A stretch of 64,000 nucleotides of DNA, taken from contig JAIUOX010000005.1 in the NCBI GenBank assembly GCA_020160955.1, positions 1 through 64,000 of the forward strand, given 5' to 3'. Numbering within the stretch: position 1 is the first letter of the stretch; each line of letters starts with the position of its first letter. The notes beneath the pieces were generated by a model. That model ran no database searches and had not been told where the DNA came from. It worked only from the letters and a program-made list of their open reading frames with translations. A program made the position numbers and the translations under genes. Positions 54,188-57,855 of this stretch are shown piece after piece. The DNA comes from Pseudomonadota bacterium. GTDB lineage: Bacteria; Pseudomonadota; Alphaproteobacteria; Reyranellales; Reyranellaceae.

Positions 54188-54757
54188 CTAGCGGTTGGCC
54201 TTCACCGCGGTCCCGCGCCACGTGCGGGCCCGCGTGCCGGCGGCGTCGAAGATCCACAGGATCAGGTCGCCGCCGGTCTCGGTGAAGCGCACCGTGAAGT
54301 GCCGCCGCCAGAAGCTGCCGTCGGCATGGGCGAACAGCGCCTCGGTGCCGAGCAGGTCGCGGCCAACCGTCAGCGTCGCCGAGCGCGGCCCGTAGGGGCC
54401 GAGGCTGGCGAGCAGGGGCGCGACGCCGCCGAACGGCGTGGCGAAGCGCAGGATCTCGCCGCTGTCGGCGGTCTGCATCGGCCCGCCGTCGATGCGCAGG
54501 CGCACCTCCGGCCGCTCGTCGACCAGCCCCAGTTCGAAATGCACGGCGAACGGCGCGGGATCGTCGCGGTCGACGTGCGGTTCCTTCGGCGGCGGGTAGA
54601 TGTCCTCGAGCGGGATCGAGCGATAGAAGCGCGCGGCGCCGTCGTAGCGGCCCAGCCACGCGGCGGGGATCGGCGTCAGTTGTGCCCGGGCGCGGCGCGT
54701 CGACGCGACGCCGGCCAGCCCGGTTCCGACGACGAGCAGGGCGCGCCGGTGCATCAT
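54188..54757 (-). CDS. Exported protein of unknown function
   Basis: A 189-residue protein. MMHRRALLVVGTGLAGVA (1-18) followed by ARAQ is a signal, with a twin Arg that could indicate Tat export. The rest is beta-rich by appearance: a VHFELGLVDERPEVRLRID stretch and DGSFWRRHFTVRFTETGGD. No cysteines or catalytic motifs are seen. I cannot name a family. It lies between the GST gene (convergent, three bases) and the divergent oxygenase gene of the next cluster, with 45 bases between starts. Confidence 0.7.
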   Translation of the reverse strand: MMHRRALLVVGTGLAGVASTRRARAQLTPIPAAWLGRYDGAARFYRSIPLEDIYPPPKEPHVDRDDPAPFAVHFELGLVDERPEVRLRIDGGPMQTADSGEILRFATPFGGVAPLLASLGPYGPRSATLTVGRDLLGTEALFAHADGSFWRRHFTVRFTETGGDLILWIFDAAGTRARTWRGTAVKANR

Positions 54758-54802: not shown

Positions 54803-55447
54803 ATGTCGACCCGAACCCTTTTCCCGACCCTGATCTACCGCCACGCCCTGGCCGGCGCCGGGCAAGGACGCCTCAACCAGGACCTCGAGGACGAGTGCCG
54901 CTCGCTGGCGCTGTCCGACGCGGCCGGTCGCCGCTGGTCGGCGACCCACTACCTCGGCGGCTACACCTCCTACGGGTCGCTCGACCGGCTGCACCTCGTG
55001 TCGTCGCTGTTCGCGCGCCTGAAGCGGCGGATCGATCCGCATGTCCGCGCCTACGCCAAGGCCTTGCACTACGACCTGTCGGGCATCTCGCTGGACATGA
55101 CCGATTGCTGGGCCAACGTCATGCCGGCCGGCGTCGTCCACTCGCTGCACCTGCACCCGACCTCGTTCGTGAGCGGCACCTACTACGTGGCGGTGCCGCG
55201 CGGCGCGGGCGCGATCAAGTTCGAGGACCCGCGGCTCGGCCTGATGATGGCGACGCCGCCCCGCCGGTCGAACGCGCCGGCCGCCGTTCACGCTTTCGTC
55301 AGCCAGCCGGCGAAGCCCGGTGAAATCGTGCTTTTCGAGTCGTGGCTGCGCCACGAGGTGCCGCCGGCCCGCTTCTCGGGGGAACGCATCTCGATTAGCT
55401 TCAACTACGTATGGAGGGAGGCCGCGCGTCGCGGCCGTCGGGGATGA
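54803..55447 (+). CDS. 2-oxoglutarate/Fe(II) oxygenase-like protein (TIGR02466-type)
   Basis: A 214-residue protein with a double-stranded beta-helix layout. The metal region is SLHLHPTSFVSGTYYVAV near residue 115, the distal His is in SWLRHEVPP, and the 2-oxoglutarate Arg in GERISISFNY. No signal peptide, hence cytosolic. It matches the short putative 2OG-Fe(II) oxygenase family. Its TGA overlaps the ATG of the next gene (ATGA), which makes it first in a four-gene coupled set. ATG 54803 was chosen because upstream the frame is antisense to the preceding gene. Confidence 0.8.
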   Translation: MSTRTLFPTLIYRHALAGAGQGRLNQDLEDECRSLALSDAAGRRWSATHYLGGYTSYGSLDRLHLVSSLFARLKRRIDPHVRAYAKALHYDLSGISLDMTDCWANVMPAGVVHSLHLHPTSFVSGTYYVAVPRGAGAIKFEDPRLGLMMATPPRRSNAPAAVHAFVSQPAKPGEIVLFESWLRHEVPPARFSGERISISFNYVWREAARRGRRG

Positions 55448-56268
55448 ACCACATGCGCGCACTGCTGATTTCGCTGGCCCTAGTGACCGCCGCCGTGCCG
55501 GCCGCCGCGGCCGACCAGGAGTTGCCGATCTTCGACGCGCACATGCACTACAGCCACGACGCCTGGTCGGTCGTGCCGCCGGCCCAGGTCGTCGAGATCC
55601 TCAAGAAGGCCGGCGTGAAGCGGGCCATGGTGTCGAGCTCGAACAACGAGGGCACCAGGATGCTGCAGGACGCGGCGCCCGGGGTGATCGTGCCGGAACT
55701 GCGTCCCTACCGCTCGCGCGGCGAGATCTCGACCTGGGCGCGCGACCCCACCGTCGTGCCGTTCCTCGAGGACATGCTGGCCAAGCGCAAGTACGTCGCG
55801 ATCGGCGAGTTCCACATCTACGGCGCCGACGCCGACCTGCCGAACGTGCGTCGCGTCGTCGAGCTGGCGAAGAAGTACGGGCTGTTCCTCCATTCCCACT
55901 CCGACGCCGACGCCGTCACCCGCCACTTCCAGCAGGACCCCTCGGCGCGCGTGCTGTGGGCGCACTCGGGCTTCGAGCGGCCCGAGAACATCCGCGAGAT
56001 GCTGCGCCGCTACCCGACGCTGTGGTGCGATCTCGCCTTCCTGACCTCGCACGCCTCGAACGGAAAGGTGGCGCCGGGATGGCGCGAGCTGTTCATCGAG
56101 TTCCCGGACCGCTTCGTGCTCGGCACCGACACTTTCACGCCGGAGCGCTGGCACTACGTCGTCGAGCACGCGCGCTGGTCGCGCCAGTGGCTGGCCGACC
56201 TTCCGCCCGACGTGGCGCGCAAGATCGCCTACGAGAACGGCGACCGGCTGTTCGGCGGCGCCCCGTGA
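55444..56268 (+). CDS. Exported amidohydrolase-family protein
   Basis: A 274-residue TIM-barrel metal-dependent hydrolase with a signal peptide (about 1-22, VPAAAAD). The HxH metal motif is IFDAHMHYSHD near residue 28; other ligands are in LFLHSHSDAD, VLWAHSGFE and VLGTDTFTP. This is the layout of the amidohydrolase_2-like superfamily. Substrate unknown. It starts inside the stop of the oxygenase gene and its own TGA overlaps the GTG of the next gene, so all are coupled. ATG 55453 (three codons later) is an alternative start. Confidence 0.82.
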   Translation: MNHMRALLISLALVTAAVPAAAADQELPIFDAHMHYSHDAWSVVPPAQVVEILKKAGVKRAMVSSSNNEGTRMLQDAAPGVIVPELRPYRSRGEISTWARDPTVVPFLEDMLAKRKYVAIGEFHIYGADADLPNVRRVVELAKKYGLFLHSHSDADAVTRHFQQDPSARVLWAHSGFERPENIREMLRRYPTLWCDLAFLTSHASNGKVAPGWRELFIEFPDRFVLGTDTFTPERWHYVVEHARWSRQWLADLPPDVARKIAYENGDRLFGGAP

Positions 56269-56681
56269 GGCCACTCGCCGCGCTGCTGGCGCTGCTGGTC
56301 GCGATCCCGGCCTTGTCGCGGCCGGCATGGGCCGACTGCCCGCTCGACCTCGGGCGCGCCACCGGCCTCGTGGTGTTCTCGAGCCATTACCTCGTGGCGT
56401 TCCGCGCCGAGCCGCTGCGCATCGAGGTCGGGGAGCCGTTCTCGCTGCTGGTCAACGTCTGCACGCGCACCAACAAGCCGGCCGAGCTGGTCGCGGTCGA
56501 CGCCCAGATGCCCGACCACCGGCACGGCATGAACTACCGGCCGACCATCGTGTCGATGGGCGACGGCCGGTTCCGCGTCGACGGCATGATCTTCCACATG
56601 CCCGGCCGCTGGGAGCTCAACCTCGACGTCCGCGACGGCGAGGAGAGCGAGCGGCTGAGCCACGAGTTCATGATCAAGTAG
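56265..56681 (+). CDS. Small exported YtkA/FixH-like protein, Met/His-rich
   Basis: A 138-residue protein with a signal peptide cleaved near AWA-D (about residue 23). The mature chain is a short Ig-like beta domain similar to YtkA. Met/His clusters QMPDHRHGMN (81-90) and DGMIFHMPGRW (107-116), plus Cys25 and Cys66, suggest metal (copper) binding; this is inference. The start is GTG 56265, overlapping the amidohydrolase stop (GTGA). The di-haem peroxidase gene follows after seven bases. Confidence 0.78.
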   Translation: MRPLAALLALLVAIPALSRPAWADCPLDLGRATGLVVFSSHYLVAFRAEPLRIEVGEPFSLLVNVCTRTNKPAELVAVDAQMPDHRHGMNYRPTIVSMGDGRFRVDGMIFHMPGRWELNLDVRDGEESERLSHEFMIK

Positions 56682-56688
56682 GCGCGCC

Positions 56689-57855
56689 GTGAAGCGCTGG
56701 TTGTTCGCCGTCGTCGCGGCCGTGCTGGTAGCAGTGCCGGCGGCGGCCGACGAGTTGCTGCTGTGGCTCGAGGACGAGGTGCAGGCGGTGGCGGCGCACG
56801 GGCCGTGGCCGCCGCCGGTGCCGCGCGATCCCAGCAACCGGGTGGCCGGCAACGCCGCCGCCGCGCGGCTGGGCGAGGTGCTGTTCAACGATCCGCGCCT
56901 GTCGGCCGATGGGCAGATGAGCTGCGCGAGCTGCCATGTCCCGGGCCGCGACTGGGTCGACGGACGGGCGCGCGGCGTGGGCCGAGTCGAGCTCGACCGG
57001 CGCACGCCGTCGCTGTGGAACGTCGGCTACGGCCACTGGTTCGGCTGGGACGGCGCGTCCGACTCGCTGTGGGCGCAGTCGATCCGGCCGATCCTCGATC
57101 CGCGCGAGATGGCGGGCGACGCGTCCCGGGTGGCGGCGCTGCTGCGCGACGACAAGCAGCTCGCCTGCGGCTACGCGCGGGCCTTCGGTGCGGCGCCGGG
57201 CAAGGACGACGAGGCGCTGCTGGTCGACGCGGCCAAGGCGATGGCGGCGTTCCAGGCGACGCTGGTCAGCCCGCGCTCCCCGTTCGACGATTTCCGCGAC
57301 GCCCTGCTCGCCGGCGACAAGGCCGCCGCTTCGCGCTACCCGGTCGACGCCCAGCGCGGGCTCAAGATCTTCGTCCGGGTCGGCTGCGCCAACTGCCACT
57401 TCGGCCCGCGCTTCACCAACGGCGAGTTCGGCGACGTCGGCGTGCCGTTCTTCACGCGGCCCGGCGAGGTCGATGCCGGCCGGCTGGACGGTCTCGGCAA
57501 GCTGGCGGCCAGCGCCTACAACCTGCTCGGCCGCTACAACGACGATCCGACCGGCAGGAGCGGCCTGCGCACCCGCCACGTCCAGCGCCTGCACAGCAAC
57601 TTCGGCGAGTTCCGCGTGCCGTCGCTGCGCCAGCCGGGGCCGGGTCCCTTCATGCACAATGGCCAGATGGCGACGCTGGAAGAGGTGGTGAAGCACTATT
57701 CCGAGGTCAGCCCGGACCGGCTGCACAGCGATGGCGTCCCGCTGGTCCGCCAGCTCGGCCTGACGCCGCGGCAGAGCGACGACATGGTGGCCTTCCTGCG
57801 CACGCTGTCGGTCGACGTGCCGCCGCGGCCGCAACCCGGTCCGCTCTGCCCCTGA
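56689..57855 (+). CDS. Di-haem cytochrome c peroxidase / MauG-family protein
   Basis: A 388-residue periplasmic protein with a signal peptide (1-20, VPAAA). Two haem c sites: CASCH at 79-83 and CANCH at 233-237. The FNDPRLSADGQMSC start and the WFGWDGASDSLWAQS and RPILDPREM blocks are family-typical, as is FMHNGQMATLEEVV near the C-terminus. Members either reduce H2O2 or, as in MauG and MbnH, oxidise residues of a partner protein. I cannot tell which from the sequence; the distal ligand was not resolved. GTG start at 56689. It closes the four-gene set. Confidence 0.88.
   Translation: MKRWLFAVVAAVLVAVPAAADELLLWLEDEVQAVAAHGPWPPPVPRDPSNRVAGNAAAARLGEVLFNDPRLSADGQMSCASCHVPGRDWVDGRARGVGRVELDRRTPSLWNVGYGHWFGWDGASDSLWAQSIRPILDPREMAGDASRVAALLRDDKQLACGYARAFGAAPGKDDEALLVDAAKAMAAFQATLVSPRSPFDDFRDALLAGDKAAASRYPVDAQRGLKIFVRVGCANCHFGPRFTNGEFGDVGVPFFTRPGEVDAGRLDGLGKLAASAYNLLGRYNDDPTGRSGLRTRHVQRLHSNFGEFRVPSLRQPGPGPFMHNGQMATLEEVVKHYSEVSPDRLHSDGVPLVRQLGLTPRQSDDMVAFLRTLSVDVPPRPQPGPLCP

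Follow-up and report, generated by a model that had tools for sequence, protein, structure and literature searches.

Four consecutive genes occupy positions 54803-57855 on the + strand of a 64,000-nt stretch (hereafter the window) of contig JAIUOX010000005.1 from assembly GCA_020160955.1 (Reyranellaceae), a genome that, judging from its relatives, appears to belong to the Reyranella group. The first gene, OXY (54803-55447), encodes a putative 2OG-Fe(II) oxygenase of 214 aa without an export signal, which scores 221.7 bits against TIGR02466 (cut-off 62.5) and also matches PF13759. AMID (55444-56268; 274 aa) overlaps OXY by the four bases ATGA, and its product passes the threshold of the Amidohydro_2 family (PF04909; 48.7 bits, gathering score 26.4). 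YTKA (56265-56681; 138 aa) overlaps AMID by GTGA and encodes a protein with a predicted beta-sandwich of the CrdA/YtkA type, and PEROX (56689-57855; 388 aa), which follows after a gap of 7 bases, encodes a di-haem protein of the MauG/MbnH type. The open reading frames and junctions were checked, and they lie as described in an earlier note made on this DNA from the sequence alone. The export signals which that note ascribed to AMID, YTKA, and PEROX were likewise recognized by eye, and relatives in some lineages carry a Tat-type signal (AMID) or a lipobox (YTKA). The Met/His clusters (residues 81-90 and 107-112) and W116 are also present in the YTKA product. Promoter, terminator, and Rfam scans gave no match.

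A divergently oriented gene for an exported 189-aa protein (P0005; window positions 54188-54757, - strand), which matches no Pfam or NCBIfam family, is found upstream of the set in most loci of the Reyranella group (52-73% identity) at a variable distance, outside the operon.

Conservation of the gene set

The comparison took in ~130 loci, many of them from metagenome assemblies and some mislabelled. The first sample consisted of 80 YTKA relatives found by a motif pattern in 84,980 species genomes, in which the other three genes were then checked. AMID, YTKA, and PEROX occur in this constant order in Reyranella, in betaproteobacteria, and in further Alpha- and Gammaproteobacteria, partly associated with sponges, while YTKA and PEROX without AMID were found in Planctomycetota, Acidobacteriota, Myxococcota, and many Pseudomonadota. 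In the AMID-free genomes of Planctomycetota, Acidobacteriota, and Myxococcota that were tested, AMID is absent genome-wide.

The bias of a motif-based sample was countered by separate searches with AMID, PEROX, and a YTKA profile. With AMID as the query against 142 genomes of the class, three other genomes gave matches of >420 bits, each with YTKA and PEROX directly downstream, while weaker matches were without them; intact YTKA, AMID, and PEROX are each present in four genomes of this sample, the same four for all three genes. Among 299 genomes of the phylum, YTKA preceded PEROX at all four places inspected after a PEROX search, and in a phylum sample of the same size the YTKA profile found 14 homologues, 13 of which have the HxH...M motif, all 13 directly upstream of PEROX. 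The remaining homologue belongs to a Reyranella genome that has lost both the motif and the enzyme. The two betaproteobacterial genomes L043 and L048 have all three genes, though on separate contigs. No plasmid matched PEROX at E<=1e-40.

The four-base overlap is the commonest junction, seen between AMID and YTKA in 37 loci and between YTKA and PEROX in 50 loci. Because the same order is found in Alpha-, Beta-, and Gammaproteobacteria and these overlaps recur, the association of AMID, YTKA, and PEROX is far above chance. An all-against-all comparison of neighbours detected no other gene conserved across clades, which rules out a wider conserved operon. The only exceptions, in some Planctomycetota, are an NHL-repeat protein and one of the LVIVD type. 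In three of these loci (L078, L081, and L067), examined by eye, the NHL-repeat protein is encoded upstream and a choice-of-anchor/LVIVD-like protein downstream of YTKA-PEROX; a further locus (L080) has an additional, second peroxidase upstream.

Judging from these gene orders, the core of the system is the pair in which YTKA lies directly upstream of PEROX, and AMID and OXY would have been added in sub-lineages. The OXY gene was found only in the Reyranella group and is absent from the AMID-YTKA-PEROX loci outside the genus, which excludes it as a member of the general system; it was probably acquired by Reyranella as an accessory. Most genomes of this group have 1-3 additional oxygenase paralogues of the TIGR02466 type (36-43% identity), sometimes in tandem.

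In the PEROX tree all AMID-bearing systems form one clade, indicating that AMID joined, or was lost, once, and on this phylogeny we regard it as an addition of single origin to the YTKA-PEROX core in one proteobacterial clade. Its presumed metal ligands (H33, H35, E122, H152, H174, and D229) are invariant in 14 of 14 members. A sequence search of the PDB with AMID gave no match, and the only hits of a fold search were amidohydrolases that are uncharacterised or generic. In two loci (L046 and L071) AMID and YTKA are a single in-frame open reading frame that has no signal peptide where the two parts meet. One genome (G107) carries a solitary gene of the AMID family (L085; 374 bits) with no adjoining YTKA or PEROX.

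The earlier note took the four genes as one system, an idea that was to fall if relatives carried them separately. When the four-gene order was sought in other genomes, AMID, YTKA, and PEROX proved to be linked in relatives and to recur together, so this part of the idea stands; it does not extend to OXY, which is confined to Reyranella, and the core is smaller than proposed.

PEROX, a di-haem enzyme of the MauG/MbnH type

PEROX belongs to the Pfam family CCP_MauG. Both of its haem-binding CxxCH motifs, CASCH (residues 79-83; 56923-56937) and CANCH (residues 233-237; 57385-57399), and Y337 (57697-57699) are invariant in 20 of 20 diverse members. Y337 aligns with the axial ligand Y294 of MauG and with the corresponding Tyr of MbnH, a position at which classical peroxidases have Met, and the alignment of the 20 members has no conserved His at the position equivalent to the loop His of bacterial cytochrome c peroxidase (bCCP). 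PEROX therefore has neither the distal Met nor the loop His of a canonical bCCP. The earlier note had held that a distal Met, with simple H2O2-reducing activity, would speak against a joint system, and the residue found there is Tyr. W93, P107, and E113 of MauG align with W120, P134, and E140 of PEROX, of which P134 and E140 are conserved.

The scores of PEROX against the MbnH family TIGR04039 (127.3 bits) and the MauG equivalog TIGR03791 (172.8 bits) are below the curated cut-offs of 362.85 and 443.85, respectively. In the PDB, the PEROX profile matched MbnH (6e1c) best, and BthA more weakly than MbnH or MauG. Taken from these alignments and scores, PEROX is best classified as a subfamily of its own of the MauG/MbnH type, and the combination of Y337 with the missing loop His points to chemistry of the MauG type rather than to the removal of peroxide. 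The window genome encodes a second, distant protein of the CCP_MauG type (40% identity) elsewhere (G000:C44:28927-29877).

YTKA and its presumed copper site

YTKA, a YtkA/FixH-like protein, scores 25.0 bits against the Pfam YtkA-like family, just under the cut-off of 25.9, and matches no NCBIfam family at E<=1. Its structure model has a mean pLDDT of 88.9 (89-98 across the domain), and the closest solved fold is that of Helicobacter pylori CrdA (9ll4; Z 12.7, rmsd 1.8 over 98 residues), followed by folds with Z of 9.2 and lower, with the P19/FetP copper proteins and filamin-type folds at ~8. CrdA was also the first match of the YTKA sequence profile (E 2e-5) and matched the model in Foldseek (E 3e-5). 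We therefore assign YTKA, as modelled, to the CrdA/YtkA type of copper-protein fold.

The methionines proposed to bind copper in CrdA include residues 69, 72, 75, and 99 (PMC9182242). In the profile alignment these correspond to M82, H85, M89, and M112 of YTKA, so that four of the five proposed positions are matched. The presumed site of YTKA would consist of a first half in residues 82-91 (MPDHRHGMNY; 56508-56537), with M82, H85, H87, and M89 followed by N90-Y91, and a second half in H111-M112 (56595-56600). On this correspondence the metal is probably copper.

W116 (56610-56612) is the only aromatic residue present in all partners of PEROX, and a Trp is aligned with it in H. pylori CrdA. N90 is found in 79 of 79 and Y91 in 77 of 79 YTKA proteins of the AMID-bearing clade, while none of the 23 AMID-free partners has an aromatic residue at position 91; since the AMID-positive systems are one clade, this link between Y91 and AMID represents one evolutionary event. 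H111 is replaced by S, T, Q, or N in part of the AMID-free clade. Two cysteines, C25 (56337-56339) and C66 (56460-56462), are conserved together in the AMID-bearing clade, are kept in genomes that have lost the enzymes, and are absent from most AMID-free partners; they likely form a disulfide.

Loss of the enzymes and decay of the His/Met motif

Among 37 genomes of the Reyranella group, YTKA and OXY were found in 36, AMID in 27, and PEROX in 26, all of these among the 27 with AMID. Nine of the 37 have neither AMID nor PEROX, yet retain OXY and YTKA. In these nine and in two further enzyme-less genomes (L015 and L037) YTKA is still an open frame, but H85 and H111 are gone in 11 of 11, together with most of M82, H87, M89, N90, Y91, and M112, while G114 and W116 are kept in all 11. 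L015 is not an artefact of a contig end, as AMID and PEROX are absent from that genome altogether. Because the residues that decay align with the copper methionines of CrdA, what is lost without the enzyme would be the presumed copper ligands.

A tree of OXY plus YTKA, from which the motif columns were left out, gave at least three independent losses, each with decay of the motif, although with three tree-independent losses a sign test is unable to reach 0.05. The full AMID-YTKA-PEROX set is present in the outgroups (L082-L084 and L102), which makes loss, not gain, the natural reading. An intermediate is represented by G163: its PEROX remnant (L101:5400-5720) is interrupted by an in-frame stop and lacks a large internal part, whereas AMID, YTKA, and the motif are intact; here the loss of the enzyme preceded the decay of the motif. 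Since loss of the enzyme was followed by decay of the His/Met residues, YTKA and PEROX very probably work together as a joint functional system.

The earlier note mentioned a modified Trp in the partners of related enzymes and pointed to W116 here. The conservation of W116 lends no support to a modification, because it is independent of the peroxidase and is thus no mark of modification; it is the His/Met motif that tracks PEROX.

Comparison with known systems

A partner protein encoded next to a MauG-like di-haem enzyme is known from MbnP/MbnH (TIGR04052/TIGR04039; PMC3621798), a pair associated with methanobactin but also widespread outside Mbn operons. YTKA and PEROX share this arrangement, but PEROX is below the MbnH cut-off, YTKA is not recognized by the MbnP model, and AMID does not figure in MbnP/MbnH as described. 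The view of the small protein as an MbnP-like partner thus holds insofar as it accompanies a MauG/MbnH-like enzyme, but not for its fold, which is of the CrdA/YtkA type. In methanotrophs, CorA has a copper site with two His and a Trp converted to kynurenine near the copper, and is co-transcribed with the MauG-like CorB (PMC3912023). The CorA/CorB and MopE/SACCP systems resemble the present one in having a copper-binding partner and a MauG-like protein; judging from their descriptions, they differ from YTKA with its CrdA/YtkA fold and His/Met site, and they are known from methanotrophs, whereas the present set occurs in Reyranella, betaproteobacteria, Planctomycetota, and others. Although it fails the curated thresholds of the MbnP/MbnH families, the YTKA-PEROX pair would most likely work like MbnP/MbnH or CorA/CorB.

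PEROX shares with the MauG of methylamine dehydrogenase the Tyr at the axial ligand position, the Trp between the haems, and the equivalents of P107 and E113, but not membership of the MauG equivalog, and because the related loci have no other conserved neighbour, there is no mau-type cluster here. BthA of Burkholderia is another MauG-like di-haem enzyme encoded apart from a mau operon, and its description mentions neither an amidohydrolase nor FixH (PMC6405878). Among the relatives of YTKA, CrdA shares the fold and the placement of the copper Met cluster, and Bacillus CtaK and the YtkA domain of YcnJ belong to the same domain family; YTKA differs from CrdA in having His for Met at position 85 and further His at 87 and 111. 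To our knowledge, none of CrdA, CtaK, and YcnJ is paired with a di-haem enzyme. A literature search for YtkA or FixH with MauG, with most subscription journals outside its coverage, found no description of the YTKA-PEROX pair.

Possible roles of the pair

We propose that YTKA is a periplasmic copper-binding protein whose site is formed by M82, H85, H87, M89, H111, and M112, and that PEROX, a periplasmic di-haem oxidant of the MauG type with a Tyr-ligated second haem, acts on YTKA, its dedicated partner. Most likely, PEROX would use H2O2 to oxidise a residue of YTKA in or close to the copper site and so make the site competent, as proposed for CorB and CorA. In one proteobacterial clade AMID would act on the same YTKA, physically tethered to it in some species, and may process the product of PEROX; one guess is that it deformylates an oxidised Trp. 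We infer here copper as the metal, YTKA as the substrate of PEROX, the residue that is oxidised, and the target hydrolysed by AMID. For this reading as a whole we would give a probability of about 0.45, and its central step, oxidation of YTKA itself by PEROX, is proposed just as tentatively. No YTKA residue has the signature of a modified side chain: W116 may be considered a candidate for conversion to kynurenine, though it is conserved regardless of the enzyme, and Y91 would qualify only within the AMID clade. That the three His (H85, H87, and H111) and the Met residues beside Asn-Tyr hold a Tyr-copper or kynurenine-copper cofactor in that clade, built by the MauG-like enzyme and finished by AMID, is a conjecture to which we give little credence; if true, the genes would form a cofactor-making set of a new kind. 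The suggestion of the earlier note that the set makes or matures a periplasmic metal-binding product thus survives for the small partner and its MauG/MbnH-like enzyme, on which the functional set is centred, but without OXY.

The lack of such a signature is also in keeping with a partnership without modification, in which the copper of YTKA and PEROX exchange electrons, to remove H2O2 or to oxidise toxic Cu(I) to Cu(II), and the site decays because it is useless without the enzyme. The joint loss of enzyme and motif fits this equally well, as do the independence of W116 from PEROX and the absence of Y91 from AMID-free systems, and Met-rich sites of the CrdA type were proposed to hold Cu(I) (PMC9182242). 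The distal Tyr and the missing loop His count against such an exchange, which also leaves the AMID-YTKA fusions unexplained, and we consider it a less likely, if serious, competitor. It is further weakened in that CrdA-type sites are known as copper carriers, not as electron carriers.

A smaller share of the probability falls to the idea that the substrate of AMID and PEROX is a small molecule or a different periplasmic protein, YTKA merely supplying copper to one of them or binding the product. AMID appears from its invariant ligands to be an intact hydrolase and is fused to YTKA in places, and CtaK and YcnJ, the latter through its YtkA domain, have a supporting role in assembling the CuA site in cytochrome oxidase (PMC13344008); but the set has no further neighbour conserved across clades, and the pair exists without AMID in several phyla, which makes this account unlikely. 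Simple linkage, in which an H2O2-reducing cytochrome c peroxidase is co-regulated with a general copper chaperone with no direct contact, would agree with the Pfam assignment of PEROX and with the set's resemblance to a single operon. Against it speak the distal Tyr, a strict pairing over a very wide range, and the decay of the partner's site once the enzyme is lost, and we regard it as very improbable.

Of the many MauG-like enzymes, only a few can be matched with a substrate, and for a large group of these enzymes the YTKA-PEROX pair supplies a specific partner. The repeated loss of the enzyme, followed by decay of the His/Met residues of YTKA, is a natural experiment indicating that the site is dependent upon PEROX. 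This takes the concept of a copper protein with a di-haem enzyme at its service beyond methanotrophs and the MbnP/CorA families, and because the YTKA proteins are small, soluble, and found in culturable Reyranella, the concept is open to direct test.
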